A stretch of DNA of 34,994 nucleotides from an uncultured Clostridia bacterium (GTDB lineage: Bacteria; Bacillota; Clostridia; Christensenellales; UBA1242), in contig CAMLSW010000009.1 in assembly GCA_946484195.1 (NCBI GenBank), positions 1 through 34,994 on the forward strand, in the 5' to 3' direction. The position numbers and the translations under genes were made by a program. Below the pieces are notes generated by a model. It searched no databases. It saw nothing but the letters and a program-made list of their open reading frames with translations, and was not told where the DNA came from. Shown in pieces: positions 16,055 to 27,114 of this stretch (the stretch's first letter is position 1; each line of letters opens with the position of its first letter).

Positions 16055-16312
16055 TTAAATAGCCTCGACAGTTCTACGCATCCCGTTAATCTGCACCATA
16101 AAAAATCCATAAAAGGAGCGGAAAGGTTTAATATTTAAAAAGTTTTTTGCAACTGGCAACAGCCTCTCTTCAAATCTTACAGATATACCGCAGGCTTGCC
16201 CTGCTTCTTTTGGAGTATTGATGATGTCGGCATAAAGTCCATTAGATTTGAACATATTTGCAAAATATAACGTTTCATTTCTCGAAGAAAAAACGGCAAT
16301 AACAAACTTCAT
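16055..16312 (-). CDS. DUF3343 protein, putative Se/S carrier
   Basis: The 85-residue protein matches the DUF3343 family (also named Se/S-carrier protein-like), with the conserved CG motif in AGQACGISVRFEERLLP (38-54, Cys41). Such proteins occur beside a cysteine desulfurase in sulfur or selenium trafficking gene sets, and this one lies back-to-back with a desulfurase, 70 bp apart. A clear GGAGG site precedes the ATG. A carrier role, receiving persulfide sulfur on the Cys, is inferred from context; no selenophosphate synthase or molybdenum hydroxylase gene is present nearby. Confidence 0.75.
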   Translation of the reverse strand: MKFVIAVFSSRNETLYFANMFKSNGLYADIINTPKEAGQACGISVRFEERLLPVAKNFLNIKPFRSFYGFFMVQINGMRRTVEAI

Positions 16313-16382
16313 AGAGCCTCCTTAACATTCACACAATCCCTTCTAAAACACTATATTGTAAATATAAAGGAATGTTTACAAA

Positions 16383-17516
16383 ATGATATATTTAGACAAT
16401 AGCGCAACAACATTTATCAAGCCTAAAGAAGTTATTAAAGCTGTATCTGACAGTCTCATTCATTATAGCGCAAACCCTGGCAGAAGCGGCCATAAGGCAA
16501 GCATAAGATGCGCTTTAAAAATTGAAGAAGTACGTGAAAAGTTAGCTTCACATTACAACGCATCAAGCAGTCAGAACGTGATATTTACTTTGAACTGTAC
16601 GCAAGCTTTAAATCTTGCAATATTAGGCTCTGCAAAAGATGGTGGCAATGTAATATGCACAGAAAACGAGCATAATTCGGTGCTAAGACCACTTGAGCAT
16701 TTAAAACAGATAGGAAAAATTGATTATTCAATTGCCTATCAATCAAATCCTATCGGGATAACTTTAAATGATATTTTGCCACTTGTTAAAAACAACACCT
16801 ATATGATTGTATGTAACCATATATCAAATGTAAATGGCAGTAAGACTGATATAAAGGAGATTGGAAGATTTTGCAGAGAAAAAGGTATCATATTTGTTGT
16901 AGATGGAGCGCAAAGTTGTGGGCACGAAAGAATTGACATAAAAGAGTTTGGTATTGATTATCTTGCCATAGCAGGACACAAAGGTTTTTACGCACCACAG
17001 AGCATTGGCGCGCTTATAATGAATGACAAGTTTATACCTGAGCCAATAACCTTTGGTGGCACAGGCACGAACTCTTTAGAGCTATTTCAGCCTGATGTAT
17101 TTCCTGAAAGATTGGAGAGCGGCACATTATCCACCCCTTTAATAATCGGACTTGGCGCTGGAGTCGAGTTTGTTGAAAATAATTTTGATAATATAAAGGC
17201 AAAGCTTGACGATTTGACCACCTACCTCAATTACGAACTAAATAAGATGGGAATAAAATCTTATACGCAGCCAGAAAATGCCAATGGCGTTGTAGCTTTC
17301 AATATAAAAGATGTGCACTCAAGCGTTATAGCAGATATTTTAAATGAAAAATATGATATTTGTGTTAGGAGCGGTTATCATTGTGCTCCTCTAAAGCATA
17401 AAGCACTAGGAACATTAGAACAAGGCGCTGTGCGAGTGTCAATATCATATTTTAATACATTTAGCGAAATACAAAGATTTTTGCACTATATAAAACAAAT
17501 TTATAAAAATAGTTAA
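16383..17516 (+). CDS. Cysteine desulfurase, class V aminotransferase (NifS/SufS-like)
   Basis: The 377-residue PLP enzyme takes sulfur from cysteine, giving alanine and an enzyme persulfide. Lys200 in AIAGHKGFY binds PLP, His97 in NEHNSV and Asp174 in VDGAQ contact the cofactor, and Cys334 in RSGYHCAPL is the sulfur-carrying residue. The RxGxHCA context is that of the SufS/CsdA group. It resembles the family paired with DUF3343, which lies divergently upstream. AAAGGA lies about 11 bases before the ATG, a long spacing. No iron-sulfur scaffold gene is nearby, so a specialised sulfur donor role is likely. Confidence 0.92.
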   Translation: MIYLDNSATTFIKPKEVIKAVSDSLIHYSANPGRSGHKASIRCALKIEEVREKLASHYNASSSQNVIFTLNCTQALNLAILGSAKDGGNVICTENEHNSVLRPLEHLKQIGKIDYSIAYQSNPIGITLNDILPLVKNNTYMIVCNHISNVNGSKTDIKEIGRFCREKGIIFVVDGAQSCGHERIDIKEFGIDYLAIAGHKGFYAPQSIGALIMNDKFIPEPITFGGTGTNSLELFQPDVFPERLESGTLSTPLIIGLGAGVEFVENNFDNIKAKLDDLTTYLNYELNKMGIKSYTQPENANGVVAFNIKDVHSSVIADILNEKYDICVRSGYHCAPLKHKALGTLEQGAVRVSISYFNTFSEIQRFLHYIKQIYKNS

Positions 17517-21566: not shown

Positions 21567-23680
21567 TTTTCGCTCCTTTGCACATTTGTGACATTTTTAA
21601 TATTCTTGATAGAGTTGATGGCGCTATCAAGCTCTCCTTTATTTTTAACTTCAATTCTTAGTGAGCAAACAAAAGTATCGCCAACATCCTTTGCATCAAA
21701 ACCTTTTATATTTATCTTTAACGATGTGATAAGGTTTGTAAGTTTAGCTATATTGTTATCAGCTTTATTAGCCGTTACTCTTATAGTTGCAGGGAAAGTT
21801 GTCCCTTCCTTTACAAGCCAAGTGGCATTGATTAGGCGCTCAGGCTCTAAATACTTTAAGTTTGGACAATTACTTCTATGCACTGTCACGCCCTTACCTC
21901 TTGATATATATCCAATTATATCGTCACCTTCAATTGGGCTACAACAGCCTGCAAACCTTACAAGCATACCACTGTCACCATCAACAAGCACGCCGTCTTT
22001 ATTTCTTTTAAGCTTAACTACATTGTCTTGTTTTGGCAGGATTAAATGGTCATTATTATATAGTGCGATAAACCTGCTTGCAACTTGTCCCGAGGTCATA
22101 GACCCAGAGCCGATTGAGGCGTAAAGCTCGTCAATATCGTCCATATTATAGCGCTTGAGTATTTCTTTAGTATAATCTTCTATAAAAAGTTGACTAGAAG
22201 TAAAACCTTTATCTTGAATAGACTGCAAAAGCATACTTTTGCCAAGTCTTATGTTTTCCTCTTTTAGTTCACTCTTAAAGAAAGATTTAATTTTACTTCT
22301 TGCTCCGCTTGTCTTTACATATTTCAGCCAGTCTCTAGATGGCCCTTTTGAATGGGATGAAGTTAAAATTTCAACGATGTCACCATTGCATAACAGCGTT
22401 GTAATAGGCTTCATCACGCCATTGATTTTTGCCCCTACACAGCTATTGCCAATGTCAGTGTGAATAGCATAGGCAAAATCTATCGCAGTTGCACCCTCTG
22501 GGAACTCAATCACCCTACCTTTTGGAGTTTGCACTATGATTACGCCGTCATAGAGGTCACTCTTAAGCGTTTCGATAAAGTCCTCATTTGACATATTTTT
22601 GGCATTTTCAATAGTCTGTCTAAACCAAGTAAGCCTATTATCAAAATCTGACTTTTTATCTTTCTTTTCTTTGTAGAGCCAGTGTGCGCAAACACCGCCA
22701 AACTCAGACTCTCTATGCATCTGTTTTGTTCGTATTTGAACTTCTAGTGGATGCTGATTTTCTACAATAATCGTAGTATGAAGTGATTTGTAGCCGTTTG
22801 GCTTTGGGTTTGCGATATAATCTTTAACTCTGCCAGTTATTGGTTTATATATTGAGTGTATACGCCCAAGCACAGCATAGCACTCTTCAACCGTATCCAC
22901 TATGACCCTCATAGCAAGTATGTCGTAGATTTGGTCTAAGGTTAGTTTTTTGTTATGAAGTTTATTGAATATTGATGATACGTGTTTTATTCGGCTGACT
23001 ATCTCGCCATCTATTTTTAAATCATCAAGTATTGCTTGAAGTTTTGCCTTAGTTATTTCAAGTTGTTGCTCATTTTCTTCACGTTTGCTTTCTATAGTCT
23101 CTTTTAGACGATTGTACTCTGATGGATGCTCTAGCCTAATAACATTGTCATAGAGATTTTGTTTGAGTTTGTCAAGCCCAAGTCTTTCGGCAAGTGGTAC
23201 GTGGACCTCTTCAACCTGCTTTACAAATCTCCACTCATTTTCATTTAAAGGAAGTTTAAGTACTGATATATCATAATAAATACCTGCAAGTTTTATCATA
23301 ACAACTCGCATATCATTGCTCATTACAAGAAACATACGTCTGATGTCTTCAATTTCCTCGCTGACGGTAAGCTGATTGATGTCCTTAATAGTCTTGTAGT
23401 CCTCGACCATTGCCTGCTCTTCCTTAGTGATGTTTTTGCAAAGTTGCTCAGCATCATCTGGATAAACTTTATATAGCTGATAGCATAAAAAGGCTATTAA
23501 AGATGCCTTATCAAGTTTTGTATCAATGATTAAACGTGTAATAACGCTTAGTCTATCTATGTTAAGGTCGTATGAAAGTATTTTATCAACCAATGTCTTA
23601 TCTTTTGCTGTTAAATTGAAGTTTTCATTTATTTTGTCTTTAAGATTTTTAATTTGCAACTCTTTTTCGCACATCCTCAT
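21560..23680 (-). CDS. relA: RelA/SpoT-type (p)ppGpp synthetase with degenerate hydrolase domain
   Basis: The 706-residue protein has the full long-RSH plan: N-terminal HD region, synthetase (about 225-340), TGS (378-440), CC zinc-finger domain (Cys579, Cys580, His601, Cys605) and ACT (about 633-703). The synthetase is intact: GRVKDYIANPKPNGYKSLHT (283-302) and EVQIRTKQMH (313-322), with the RxKD signature of bifunctional enzymes. The hydrolase metal motifs are lost. The usual HDxxED reads FLCYQLYKV (64-72), the usual KLADRLHNMRTL reads KLAGIYYDISVL (130-141), and no AHxGQ motif is found. It should therefore make but not break (p)ppGpp. The start at 23680 has AAAGGAG and overlaps recJ by 32 bp. 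Confidence 0.93.
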   Translation of the reverse strand: MRMCEKELQIKNLKDKINENFNLTAKDKTLVDKILSYDLNIDRLSVITRLIIDTKLDKASLIAFLCYQLYKVYPDDAEQLCKNITKEEQAMVEDYKTIKDINQLTVSEEIEDIRRMFLVMSNDMRVVMIKLAGIYYDISVLKLPLNENEWRFVKQVEEVHVPLAERLGLDKLKQNLYDNVIRLEHPSEYNRLKETIESKREENEQQLEITKAKLQAILDDLKIDGEIVSRIKHVSSIFNKLHNKKLTLDQIYDILAMRVIVDTVEECYAVLGRIHSIYKPITGRVKDYIANPKPNGYKSLHTTIIVENQHPLEVQIRTKQMHRESEFGGVCAHWLYKEKKDKKSDFDNRLTWFRQTIENAKNMSNEDFIETLKSDLYDGVIIVQTPKGRVIEFPEGATAIDFAYAIHTDIGNSCVGAKINGVMKPITTLLCNGDIVEILTSSHSKGPSRDWLKYVKTSGARSKIKSFFKSELKEENIRLGKSMLLQSIQDKGFTSSQLFIEDYTKEILKRYNMDDIDELYASIGSGSMTSGQVASRFIALYNNDHLILPKQDNVVKLKRNKDGVLVDGDSGMLVRFAGCCSPIEGDDIIGYISRGKGVTVHRSNCPNLKYLEPERLINATWLVKEGTTFPATIRVTANKADNNIAKLTNLITSLKINIKGFDAKDVGDTFVCSLRIEVKNKGELDSAINSIKNIKNVTNVQRSEKW

Positions 23681-26036
23681 TTTCTCCTTTAAAGGTGTTT
23701 TTTATAAGCGCTAATTCATTATATATGCTTGACTGAGTTAAATCTTTCTTAACCGATTTGTTAAGTTTTATTTTAATTAAGTCACCCTCTTCAATTTCAA
23801 TCAAGCTTAACTGATTAAACACCAAAAGTGCTAAGTAAAAGGTATTAAAAGATACTTGATTATATAAATCACATTTATCATACAAGTCAAACACATTGTA
23901 TACAGATTTGTTTTGTTTGCCAGAAAGAGCCTTATAAATTTTAGCATATGTTTGTCTTGATAGGTCTACGCCAGCAAACTTTCGCGGGTCACCAAAACTT
24001 TCTATAGGCAGATAAATTTCTGCATCTGTGATTTTATTGAGAGCGGATATAAAGTCTTTATCAATTACTGGCGACAAAAATATAATTTTATTAAAATTTT
24101 TAGCCCACTCTATGCCCTTAGGTGATAGTAGCACGCTGTTGTAACCAATCTCTCTATCTTCATAGATACCAAATTGATATATACACTCCGTGTTGTAGTT
24201 TTTAGTGAATTCAACATAGTCAAAACAAGAATAGGTCACAAAGCAAGTTCCAAACACCGAGGTTGTTGTACCGCCTACAAAAGATAGTAATTCCTCTTTT
24301 GGATAAAATTTAAATTTTGCCTCATCTCCGCCCGACACGGCAAGCTGATTAAGCTCGATTGAGTTAAGCTTTTTATAGGCATCCTCTTGAATAAAACTAC
24401 CACCATCAAAAACATCAACAACGCCTTTTGTAGAGTGAGGCTGAAATTCAAATATAAAAGATTTTTTTCTCGAAAATTCTATTTTTACTACGTCATCAAG
24501 AAAGTTGAAATAGGTCAAATTTAAGTTGCCAATCTTGATGTTTGCGTGCTGAGGAAACTTTTTCATAGGTTGCAGGTCAATCTCTTGGGCTGTAATTTTA
24601 AATTTAGGTCTAGGATTATCGCATCCATAAGGCTCAAGTAATGTGAGTTCTTTTAAAAATTGTGGGGTAAGCTCCTCTTCTGTTATCTCTTGGTCATAAT
24701 ACTTGATTGGAATAAAAACCTCATCACTAATATTATTTAGTGCAAAGGCGTTTATCTTGTTTGCAAACAGCTCATAATTGCTTCGTTTTAGTGTTAGTCC
24801 CGCCGCCATAGAGTGCCCGCCAAACGTTTCTAAAATGTCCTTTAAAGACGATAGAAGCTCGTGAATATTTATGTCGGTTATACTTCGCCCAGAACCAGAG
24901 AGCAAATCACCCTCTTGAGCAAACAAAAATACCGGTTTGTGATATTTTTCAACAAGCCTTGAACATACTATACCAAGCACGCCTTTATCCCAAGCTTTAG
25001 AGGCAAGAGTTATAACTCTTTGATTGCGCATATCCACCTTTTTTAAAGCCTTTTCGCAATCTTCATAAATTTTATTGCAAATTGCCTGTCTTTTGGTGTT
25101 ATGCTCTTTAATCTTTGCAAGGTCCTTTTTTATCATTACTGGGTCAGTCTCAAAATAAAGTTTAAGCGAGTCCTCCGCGTCGCCCATTCTGCCAGAAGCA
25201 TTGAGTTTTGGTCCTATCTTAAAGGATATATCGGTGGCATCTGGTTTGCTTAGTGGTATATCATATTCTTTAAACATTGTTTTTAATCCAAGTGGAAGAT
25301 ATCTTTCACAAAGCTTTAAACCGAGTGATACGATAGTTCTATTTTCGCCAAGTAGTGGCACTATATCTACAATAGTTGCAATCGCGGTGATTGGCAAAAA
25401 CTGCAGCGCCTCTTGTCTGCCAAGTAGTGCCTCGGCAAATTTATATGCAACGCCCGTGCCACAAAGTTCTCTAAATGGATAAGCCTGCCCGCTTAGTTTC
25501 GCGTTAACTACAATGGTGTCTGGAATAAGCTCTGGTATTTCGTGGTGGTCAGTTACAACTATCTCTATTCCCAAATTCTTGGCATACTCAATCTCGCTAT
25601 AACAAGATATTCCGCAGTCAACAGTTATAATTAAATTTGGTGCATAAACGCTGGCTATCTTATCAATAACCTTATTTGTAAGACCATATCCGTCTACATA
25701 TCTATTTGGCAGATAAAAGTCAGCCTTTATTCCAAATTGTTTTAATGCTTTCAACATAATTGATGTAGCACTTACGCCGTCTACATCATAGTCGCCAAAG
25801 ATAAGCACTTTGTCTTTTAGTTCTTTAGCTAGTTTAACTCTATCAACAAGTTCTTTCATTCCACTTAGCAAGAATGGGTCGTGTAAAATTTTAGGATTTA
25901 AATATTCTTCTATATCTTCACTTGTGTTCAATCCTCTAGATAATAAAAGTTCTGTTATTTTAGGTGTTAAATTAAATTCTTGAGCAAAATGCTGTACTTT
26001 ATCGGCGTCCTTATTAAAAAATTTCTTTAATATCAT
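23649..26036 (-). CDS. recJ: RecJ single-stranded-DNA 5'-3' exonuclease
   Basis: RecJ trims 5' single strands in recombination and repair. The 795-residue protein has the DHH phosphoesterase motifs: FGDYDVDGVSA (80-90), TVDCG (138-142), DHHE (163-166), and the DHHA1 motif GGHSMAAG (406-413). The OB region follows (about 440-550), and a long C-terminal extension (about 560-795) of the kind found in Firmicutes RecJ. Its end overlaps relA, and the start has AAGGCGGA seven bases upstream. The 379-bp gap upstream of recJ holds the cloverleaf element. Confidence 0.96.
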   Translation of the reverse strand: MILKKFFNKDADKVQHFAQEFNLTPKITELLLSRGLNTSEDIEEYLNPKILHDPFLLSGMKELVDRVKLAKELKDKVLIFGDYDVDGVSATSIMLKALKQFGIKADFYLPNRYVDGYGLTNKVIDKIASVYAPNLIITVDCGISCYSEIEYAKNLGIEIVVTDHHEIPELIPDTIVVNAKLSGQAYPFRELCGTGVAYKFAEALLGRQEALQFLPITAIATIVDIVPLLGENRTIVSLGLKLCERYLPLGLKTMFKEYDIPLSKPDATDISFKIGPKLNASGRMGDAEDSLKLYFETDPVMIKKDLAKIKEHNTKRQAICNKIYEDCEKALKKVDMRNQRVITLASKAWDKGVLGIVCSRLVEKYHKPVFLFAQEGDLLSGSGRSITDINIHELLSSLKDILETFGGHSMAAGLTLKRSNYELFANKINAFALNNISDEVFIPIKYYDQEITEEELTPQFLKELTLLEPYGCDNPRPKFKITAQEIDLQPMKKFPQHANIKIGNLNLTYFNFLDDVVKIEFSRKKSFIFEFQPHSTKGVVDVFDGGSFIQEDAYKKLNSIELNQLAVSGGDEAKFKFYPKEELLSFVGGTTTSVFGTCFVTYSCFDYVEFTKNYNTECIYQFGIYEDREIGYNSVLLSPKGIEWAKNFNKIIFLSPVIDKDFISALNKITDAEIYLPIESFGDPRKFAGVDLSRQTYAKIYKALSGKQNKSVYNVFDLYDKCDLYNQVSFNTFYLALLVFNQLSLIEIEEGDLIKIKLNKSVKKDLTQSSIYNELALIKNTFKGENEDVRKRVAN

Positions 26037-26415
26037 AGTTCCGCCTTTCTCTTTATAGTTCTATTATATTTGTTTTATTAAAAGATAGCAAGTAAAAAGC
26101 CCGAATTTTAAAAAGATTTTTACAAGTAGAAAATATTTGTTTGGATTTCGTTTATTGATTTGCTTTTTGACTTTGTTTTATCATCCTTAGAAAATGATTG
26201 GGTTTTAGATAAAGTTAAACGAAGATAAAGGAACAAGGGCGATTTTTAACAGTGTTAAAAATCAAGATAACCGCGTGGCGGTTATCTTCCAGACCTAAAA
26301 CTTTAGGTCTGGAGCCCTTGTTCCCTTATGTAGAATAAAATTTATACAGCACCAAATTAAGTTTATCTCAAGTTTTTATTATTCTGATGTTTTTTCACAT
26401 TATAATTTACAAAAT
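26037..26415. other. Intergenic gap between cdsZ and recJ
   Basis: This 379-bp gap interrupts an otherwise tight co-directional gene run. It holds the four-armed inverted-repeat element (26225-26329) and AT-rich flanks. I see no gene and no clear promoter or terminator with a T tract. Confidence 0.7.
26225..26329. repeat. Cloverleaf element: nearly perfect four-way inverted repeat
   Basis: A closing stem (26230-26240 with 26314-26324, 11 bp, extended by four more pairs beyond one A/C mismatch) encloses three hairpins: 26241-26263 (10 bp, loop AGT), 26264-26288 (11 bp, loop GTG) and 26289-26312 (11 bp, loop AC). In the core 95 bases 86 are paired, and the junction has only one free base, A26313. 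All pairs are Watson-Crick, so both DNA strands and both RNAs can fold the same way. It has no coding potential. It may be a structured RNA, a small mobile element of the MITE/REP kind, or a DNA cruciform site. Confidence 0.9.
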
Positions 26416-27114
26416 CTATTGCTTATAAATAATTCTATGGCAGTGCTCACAAGTCAGTATTCCATCATTTTCAAGTTTAGAGATATTGGCATATGGAAGT
26501 TCAATATGGCATCCACCACAAGAGTTGTTTACAATTGGAACAACGATAGGAAAGATATTTTCTTTTCTTCTCTTATTGTAGGCGTCCATAACCTTTGTAT
26601 CAATTCCTTTAGCAAGCGTAGCAAGCTTATCTTGTAACTCTTTTTGACTTGCCTCCACCGCTTTAACTTCGTTTTCATAGGCACTTTTGCTTTTAGCAAA
26701 CTGCTCTTTACAACTGTTAAAGATTTTTATAGTTTTGTTAAAGTCAGATAGAACCGCGTTTACACTTTCAGCAAGTGCCGTCAGGTTCCTGTCTAGTATA
26801 TTGAGGTTTTGAGCAAGCTTATCTTTAAGCCCGCTAAGTTTGTCGATTTCTTCTTTAGAAAGCGATGACAAATCTTTAGAAGTAAACTCCTTCATCTTAT
26901 CTTCTTGTACTTTGAATTGTTTCTTAACTTTATCTATTTCAGCTAAAAGTTGCCCTGCCTTTTCTTCAAGTTTGACAGACTTGTTCTGAGCCTCTTTCAT
27001 ATTTTCGTGCATTTTGTTGGCAGTTTTTTTGTTCTCGTTATTTTTGATTTGTCTTTCAATCTTTACAAGCTGACCATCTAGTTTTTGATATTCTAATATT
27101 TTGCTTAAATCCAT
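26416..27114 (-). CDS. Coiled-coil zinc-ribbon protein (CdsZ-like)
   Basis: The 232-residue protein is a long helical hairpin (about 5-165) followed by a C4 zinc ribbon: Cys199-x2-Cys202 (SCGGCHIELP) and Cys222-x2-Cys225 (CEHCHRIIY). This plan is that of the widespread zinc-ribbon family called CdsZ or YqfO-neighbour protein, for which roles in RNA or replication have been proposed, but the function is not settled. The ATG follows AAGGAG and lies 12 bp after the rpoD stop, so it is in the dnaG-rpoD operon. Confidence 0.85.
   Translation of the reverse strand: MDLSKILEYQKLDGQLVKIERQIKNNENKKTANKMHENMKEAQNKSVKLEEKAGQLLAEIDKVKKQFKVQEDKMKEFTSKDLSSLSKEEIDKLSGLKDKLAQNLNILDRNLTALAESVNAVLSDFNKTIKIFNSCKEQFAKSKSAYENEVKAVEASQKELQDKLATLAKGIDTKVMDAYNKRRKENIFPIVVPIVNNSCGGCHIELPYANISKLENDGILTCEHCHRIIYKQ

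Follow-up and report, generated by a model that had tools for sequence, protein, structure and literature searches.

A family of four-armed palindromic repeats in a Clostridia genus, with a copy between recJ and a cdsZ-like gene

MITEs and the RUP, Correia, ERIC and bcr elements are small non-coding interspersed repeats with a narrow host range. The attC sites of integrons are recognised as folded single-stranded DNA, their structure is more conserved than their sequence, and they may form arrays; each consists of a single imperfect hairpin, carries R and L boxes and lies beside cassette genes. REP and REPIN sequences are mobilised as folded single strands by the RAYT (TnpA-REP) transposases. 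REPs are described as 20-40-bp palindromes tagged GTAG or CGTC (PMC3733652), and REPs and REPINs as short interspersed intergenic palindromes that are maybe non-autonomous transposable elements (PMC3116915; PMC8266576). A systematic search for repeated foldable sequence has defined families of bacterial stem-loop sequences, some of which are predicted to be more complex, e.g., paired adjacent stem-loops (PMC2267715); the main text of that report contains neither "cloverleaf" nor "branched".

Here we describe a four-armed inverted repeat from a 34,994-nucleotide stretch of DNA (hereafter the window) of an uncultured Clostridia bacterium (genome G000), and a family of such repeats in its genus. 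Like REPs and REPINs, the family consists of short interspersed palindromic repeats in intergenic places, but its members have four arms, measure roughly 75-105 bp and carry no GTAG or CGTC tag as a rule (GTAG/CTAC lies near an end in 7 of 108 matches, CGTC/GACG in 2 of 108); in contrast to the REP-RAYT pairing, no Y1 transposase was found in G000 itself. As with MITEs and similar repeats, the members are non-coding, small, interspersed and narrow in host range, and one type (B) is polymorphic between genomes, whereas the B unit has, as judged by eye, no terminal inverted repeats, and the other type (A) shares shape far more than sequence. Structure kept more than sequence and the occurrence of arrays recall attC, and recognition as folded DNA may be a further likeness; unlike attC, the family shows a perfect four-way junction without genes. 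The place after cdsZ and an outer stem with a T-rich tail on the minus strand, weakened in G000, make the window element resemble an intrinsic terminator, from which it differs by three further hairpins in the loop. Short palindromes interspersed in genomes are well known as repeats, and four-armed ones, apparently kept in shape at the DNA level, are, as far as we searched, a new variant; the literature consulted, mostly at the level of abstracts, yielded no account of such a cloverleaf repeat.

The cloverleaf between recJ and the cdsZ-like gene

The window element (Table 1) is a four-way inverted repeat in which an outer stem of 11 bp encloses hairpins of 10, 10 and 11 bp; all pairs are Watson-Crick and one junction base is unpaired. 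The 125-nt stretch that contains it has a minimum free energy of -61.9 kcal/mol in RNAfold (z -10.6), and none of 200 dinucleotide shuffles folds as well, so that the four-armed cloverleaf of the original prediction was borne out. The 86 paired bases given there for the 95-base element are slightly more than RNAfold returns, namely 88% of the 95 bases with loops of 3, 3 and 4 bases; closing the third loop to 2 bases would give about 86. The element had also been placed in a tight operon gap, whereas the gap between recJ and cdsZ is 379 bp long and contains a promoter-like site for recJ. Stretches resembling TTGCT..TATAAT, likewise matched by consensus only, precede recJ in many relatives.

Table 1. 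Features of the recJ-cdsZ region in the window
Feature	Position	Strand	Basis or remark
recJ (DHH, DHHA1, RecJ_OB), downstream in transcription	23649..26036	-	ORF, domain matches
recJ promoter-like site TTGCTA-17-TATAAT	26063..26091	-	Consensus match only
Cloverleaf element, order outer - h1 - h2 - h3 - outer	26230..26324	+	Folds; models R1, R2
Outer stem 5' arm GGAACAAGGGC	26230..26240	.	Resembles cdsZ terminator stem of G094, G008, G082 (short similarity)
h1, AT-rich hairpin GATTTTTAAC..GTTAAAAATC	26241..26263	.	Least variable arm across the family
Single unpaired junction base	26264..26264	.	Fold
h2 hairpin	26265..26287	.	In sister genome G032, G-U at one pair (minus strand)
h3 hairpin	26288..26313	.	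Fold
Outer stem 3' arm GCCCTTGTTCC	26314..26324	.	Sequence and fold
cdsZ-like zinc-ribbon protein (Zn_ribbon_9), upstream in transcription	26416..27114	-	ORF, domain match

The surrounding genes, all on the minus strand, are those for DnaG, a sigma-70 factor, the cdsZ-like zinc-ribbon protein, RecJ and RelA/SpoT. The element has its family orientation on the plus strand, that is, antisense to cdsZ and recJ. That it has no T tract, as originally stated, is true of the plus strand and not of the minus strand, on which both genes are read and where the outer 3' arm continues into TTGTTCCTTTATC in G000 and into TTGTTTTTCTTC in the sister genome G032.

Among 60 relatives compared by plain similarity, a homologue was found in one, G032, at the same place and with 92% identity over 125 nt. 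Together with the further copies, structure-preserving variants and compensatory changes described below, this excludes a one-off palindrome or an assembly artefact. At E 0.01, plain similarity gave matches to the window element in four of 112 genomes of the genus, two of which were rejected: that of G013 is AT-rich and chance-like, and that of G123 is a plain terminator whose 20-nt hairpin is identical. The latter (L040 1501-1520) is bidirectional and shares the hairpin with h3 of the window element, likely by chance. Among 30 cdsZ loci of the genus, in 28 of which recJ was found downstream, a cloverleaf lies beside cdsZ only in G000 and G032, and the remaining 28 loci (100,905 bases), when scanned by folding, yielded no four-way structure. 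The covariance model R2 (see below), run without filters on 15 cdsZ loci of nearer relatives, gave two weak matches adjoining cdsZ, L023 2195-2302 (E 0.015) and L021 1417-1493 (E 0.089), which are degenerate copies, terminators or chance.

At the element's place, three relatives carry plain terminators with ACAAG-type stems: AAACAAGGAC..GTCCTTGTTTTTT in G094, which has 84% identity in cdsZ, GACAAGGG..CCCTTGTTTTTT in G008 and AACAAGAGA..TCTCTTGTTTTTTT in G082. The outer arms of the window element read ACAAGGGC..GCCCTTGTT on the same strand, and TACATAA precedes the stem in G094 and G008, as in the window. On these short matches, the outer arm would thus resemble the terminator stem of the relatives, with the three inner hairpins filling the terminator loop. 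The T tract after the stem on the transcribed strand is good in G032, where TTGTTTTTC is retained 3' of the outer arm, and weakened in G000, which has lost most of it. The copy seems to have arisen at the cdsZ terminator in the ancestor of G000 and G032, and the terminator stem seems, to judge from the short similarities, to have been taken over as its outer arm. Because the outer arm would be the former terminator stem, the copy in the minus-strand transcript probably retains a role in ending or protecting the cdsZ message. Among six other four-way members of G000, a T run closely follows the outer arm in at most two (by eye).

Detection and distribution of the family

Genomes were scanned with RNAfold in 150-base windows for multiloops in which nearly all bases are paired. 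Sixteen four-way structures (11 + 5) were detected in 722,824 bases of G000 and 21 (10 + 11, the second scan at slightly stricter energy) in 793,819 bases of G032; by eye, two of the former (L065 14190 and L083 17389) and four of the latter are unlike the family. The same scan found none in 722,824 bases of dinucleotide-shuffled DNA. Twenty other genomes of the genus (at most 20 kb each; 366,312 bases) contained four, three of them clear, and 20 from other families within the order (332,248 bases) contained one weak structure.

A covariance model built from three members (R1) gave 29 matches at E 0.1 in 1.52 Mb, including its own three and three wrong-strand duplicates, and it reached E 7e-12 on members outside its building set; the window copy scored 40.7 bits on the plus strand and 24.7 bits on the minus strand. 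A second model, R2, was built from 18 matches with the window copy excluded. The window element is missed under the default model filters and scores well with the filters off: over the whole window, its R2 scores are then 48.9 bits (E 2.2e-8) for the plus strand and 34.8 bits for the minus strand, and no other place in the window does better than E 0.016. The common layout is an outer stem, h1 (AAATTTTAAAC..GTTTAAAATTT or similar), h2 (often GTTTTGC..GCAAAAC), h3 (mostly starting with GC) and the returning outer stem.

A MAFFT alignment of 16 members failed to follow the structure, and model-fitted alignments were used instead. In alignment A5 (18 matches, 17 distinct rows), 96.6% of 565 cells are paired, both sides have changed in 34 of 35 pairs, and covariation is 0.813 against 0.196 in shuffled and 0.098-0.206 in slid controls; these values lean upward because A5 is fitted to the model, a bias from which the RNAfold scans are free. 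Multiple copies, structure-preserving variants and compensatory changes, which the original prediction had proposed as a check, were thus found by the fold scans, the covariance models and A5. Palindromic repeats are normally found by sequence similarity, and a family kept mainly by shape evades such searches: plain similarity found one homologue only, and the family emerged from the fold scan and the covariance model.

Of the 112 genomes of the genus, R2 matches 43 at E 0.001 with strict filters, and the other 69 give no match at this threshold; the richest are G082 (25 matches), G000 (24), G032 (20), G127 (16) and G079 (16). A draw of 396 genomes from 142 genera of the order gave matches at E 0.0001 in six genomes of two genera, namely five of the same genus and G351 from another genus of the same family; since few candidates per genome were scored (11), this draw does not prove absence elsewhere in the order. 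Neither the window element nor a B copy matched phages or plasmids, and an A member had no match in phages. The window had no Rfam match at gathering score, and in five member loci Rfam matched only tRNA and SRP RNA.

Change in place, mobility and candidate partner proteins

The A-type copies, to which the window element belongs, persist at their places. Sixteen were listed in G000, and all 14 that have a flank in the G032 stretches compared (all but L062 1651 and L070) have a cloverleaf in G032; the flanks are two-sided at 11 of them and one-sided at L076, L216 and L217, where the G032 copy was found by R2. The reverse comparison, from G032 to G000, covers only places with a G000 flank (not, e.g., L110 or L160). 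Across 13 orthologous G000/G032 pairs (L065 excluded), the elements have 28 mismatches in 1218 positions and the 60-bp flanks 197 in 1457, so that the flanks are about six times more diverged. The h3-side flank has 155 mismatches and 96 gap columns in these pairs and the h1 side 42 and 12, an excess that amounts to one-sided turnover at the element border.

Five pairs with the more distant species G094 and G079 lie at the same place, often with flanks that cannot be aligned. They show 34 double and one single pair change and eight non-standard cells, with one pair (L070/L232) accounting for 17 of the doubles; 11 G000/G032 pairs show three double and two single changes and five non-standard cells. 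The excess of double over single changes, in 35 changes from five pairs, hints at arm-to-arm copying; it could also stem from strict selection over long times. At one orthologous place, the copies have opposite orientation (L213 3673-3763, minus; L225 6563-6649, plus), which implies either a flip at the outer inverted arms or a separate arrival. L065 and its counterpart L106 share their flanks and the outer stem AGCTCCAG, which overlaps a tRNA 3' end, but all three inner hairpins differ.

Several copies have a particular setting. At L065 8705-8878 and L106 277-498, 64-bp tandem repeats directly follow a tRNA-like gene; their units form a AGCTCCAG..CTGGAGCT stem with a plain loop, and the first unit holds the cloverleaf, the inner hairpins of which differ between G000 and G032. 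Tandem CCCCAATTGCACCACTTCGCTTAGC units immediately follow a cloverleaf at L070 10160-10300. Cloverleafs at L225 5252-5342, L225 6563-6649 and L213 3670-3768 lie a short distance upstream of a gene's ribosome-binding site, and by eye a TTGAC..TAT-type promoter-like stretch precedes those at L225 6563 and L213 3670, which may therefore be located in a 5' leader.

The B copies have an outer stem ACTATGTGATG and a tail of about 45-60 bp ending in GGCTTCCGATAA, so that the unit, by eye, extends for about 125-145 bp from ACTATG to GGCTTCCGATAA; behind the same outer stem and tail, the inner hairpins occur in different versions. No terminal inverted repeats were seen at the unit ends, only the outer arms of the cloverleaf being inverted. 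B copies form tandem arrays and are mostly flanked by TATA-like tetramers: in 13 captured copies, TATA or near-TATA stands beside most ends, in AT-rich sites and partly within arrays. The B copy at L214 5234 of G000 has TATA on both sides, and the corresponding site in G032 is empty, with one TATAA instead of two. At L219/L223, G000 has a single B copy and G032 has one followed, where the contig ends, by the beginning of another. The B subfamily is thus mobile or recently duplicated, as the empty site and the difference in array length show. Arrays or units at contig ends occur at L058, L062, L097, L109 and L223 and at the ends of several other contigs in G000 and G032, so that B units seem to interrupt assembly and their copy number is probably underestimated. 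For the A copies, no target-site duplication could be defined, and past mobility is inferred from their kinship in layout with B. Of the earlier proposal of a small non-autonomous mobile element, mobility is therefore supported for B only (one empty site, arrays), and A copies show no recent movement.

As to possible partner proteins, Y1 transposases (PF01797) occur in 13 of 112 genomes, including G032, and none was found in G000 (80% complete), G082, G127 or G079; all the richest cloverleaf genomes except G032 thus have none. Cloverleaf matches are present in 11 of the 13 genomes with a Y1 transposase and in 32 of the 99 without (Fisher p 0.0004, uncorrected for relatedness). In G065, no more than about 60 bp separate an IS200-type element (L236, about 1360-2200) from a B copy. 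Mobilisation by IS200 was rejected: that element has end hairpins of its own, and three further Y1 loci compared (L233-L235, from among the 13 genomes with Y1) have no B copy, R2 without filters giving there one weak place (L234 1255-1330, E 0.025). IS110 was rejected because PF01548 is present in none of the 112 genomes, and XerCD/dif because the B junction has 7-8 mismatches in 28 positions from a Firmicutes dif, like unrelated matches; G000 has no dif-like site within three mismatches. Tyrosine recombinases occur in 111 of 112 genomes, and their number correlates weakly with that of cloverleaf matches (rho 0.31), as does genome size (rho 0.36) and as recombinase number does with genome size (rho 0.56). 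Comparison of Y1, IS110 and tyrosine recombinases pointed to no partner protein, and a junction-binding protein, for which the original prediction had also proposed the element as a target, was not found.

The selected form and rival explanations

If RNA were the selected form, G-U pairs should much exceed A-C mismatches. In alignment A6 (108 matches, 93 distinct, a few of them places taken on both strands: L110, L231 4094 and L181), 2887 of 3066 cells are Watson-Crick, 27 G-U (0.9%) and 18 A-C (0.6%), the remaining cells being partly register shifts; G-U does not clearly exceed A-C, and the tRNAs in the same loci, as a control, have 70 G-U among 1297 pairs (5.4%). Of the A copies between tandem genes, 20 are sense and 18 antisense (n = 38), and the 1261 Watson-Crick cells of these 38 are accompanied by no internal G-U and no internal A-C. 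The 38 are a subset of 47 tandem A-type places: the window copy, L007, L091 13113 and L101 7696 are absent from A6, and L220 10077, L231 4094, L096 5705, L091 2265 and L230 4593 were also left out. Since G-U is about as rare as A-C and there is no strand preference, the four-armed shape appears to be kept as DNA and not as RNA. A structured RNA acting on the cdsZ/recJ mRNA had been offered, and the same two results speak against it. The comparison of G-U with A-C, together with strand balance, is a simple test that can be used on other "structured RNA" candidates resting on covariation only.

The reading that we favour, as the probable one, is that the window feature is a copy of a genus-level family of cloverleaf folded DNA that formerly spread as a non-autonomous mobile element. 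The recognised feature would be a strand-symmetric DNA fold, either a cloverleaf in a single strand or a four-way junction extruded as a cruciform from the duplex, and its user may be a recombinase, a transposase or a junction-binding protein. The family would have spread as a small element, and the A-type copies, including that of the window, would be older, fixed and now constrained. We more tentatively suggest that the element is inherited as a shape, with arms that change together and leave scarcely a one-sided intermediate, one being copied from the other in the folded state, and a protein that recognises the fold. Arm copying and recognition would then occur during passage through a folded single-stranded or cruciform state, the sequence could drift freely, whole sets of inner hairpins could be replaced (L065 versus L106) and copies could flip in place, all without loss of the cloverleaf.

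A cis-acting structured RNA, i.e., a leader or 3' UTR element whose fold forms on the transcribed strand, whichever that is, is a doubtful alternative. The very stable fold would suit it, as would the copies shortly before a start codon (L213, L225) and the window element, in which every difference between G000 and G032 is G-U on the transcribed strand. Divergent gaps also seem to be avoided by A-type copies: they hold 2 of 66, although 18% of intergenic bases are divergent (p 0.0005, with orthologous copies counted apart, a few B-like ones filed as A by the simple letter test used for the A/B split, and eight places inside ORF calls and places with a gene on one side only set aside). This avoidance could mean that transcription matters or only that promoters are spared. 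However, 17 of the 66 lie in convergent gaps, G-U pairs stay far below those of the tRNAs, the orientation is balanced, Rfam gave no match at gathering score, and the neighbouring genes are unrelated: cdsZ and recJ by domain matches, and groEL, rlmH, rpsL and hslU as read from translations. Quasi-palindrome correction, in which template switching copies one arm onto the other, might make and keep perfect arms with no selection on the fold. The 34 double changes against one single change in five pairs (17 in one pair), the 38 copies without internal mismatches and the orthologous copies that face opposite ways (L213 3673 versus L225 6563) all fit such a process, yet it is unlikely to act alone, for it leaves unexplained the one family layout with a little-varying h1, the near-restriction to one genus, and the persistence at orthologous places with six-fold lower divergence than the flanks. 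Template switching may act together with the folded-DNA family that we favour.

The strand symmetry, the intergenic places and the conservation in place would equally be expected of a host-useful, non-mobile DNA signal of the REP/BIME kind, such as a site for a nucleoid or junction-binding protein or for supercoil relief; this we judge quite unlikely, as species of the one genus differ widely in their number of matches (25 to 0) and the related B subfamily behaves as mobile. For the window only, the feature could be read as an elaborated intrinsic terminator of cdsZ, given the ACAAG-type terminator stems of G094, G008 and G082 at this place and the TTGTTTTTC after the outer arm in G032. This is very improbable, because the three inner hairpins and the family remain unexplained and most of the T tract is gone in G000.

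With its many naturally occurring four-way junctions, whose arms have changed in concert, the family allows tests of arm-to-arm copying, of folded-DNA recognition by recombinases and of the boundary between DNA- and RNA-level covariation. Another intergenic repeat region, upstream of rpsL at L055 (about 16190-16860), has many matches to other places in G032 and does not belong to the cloverleaf family.
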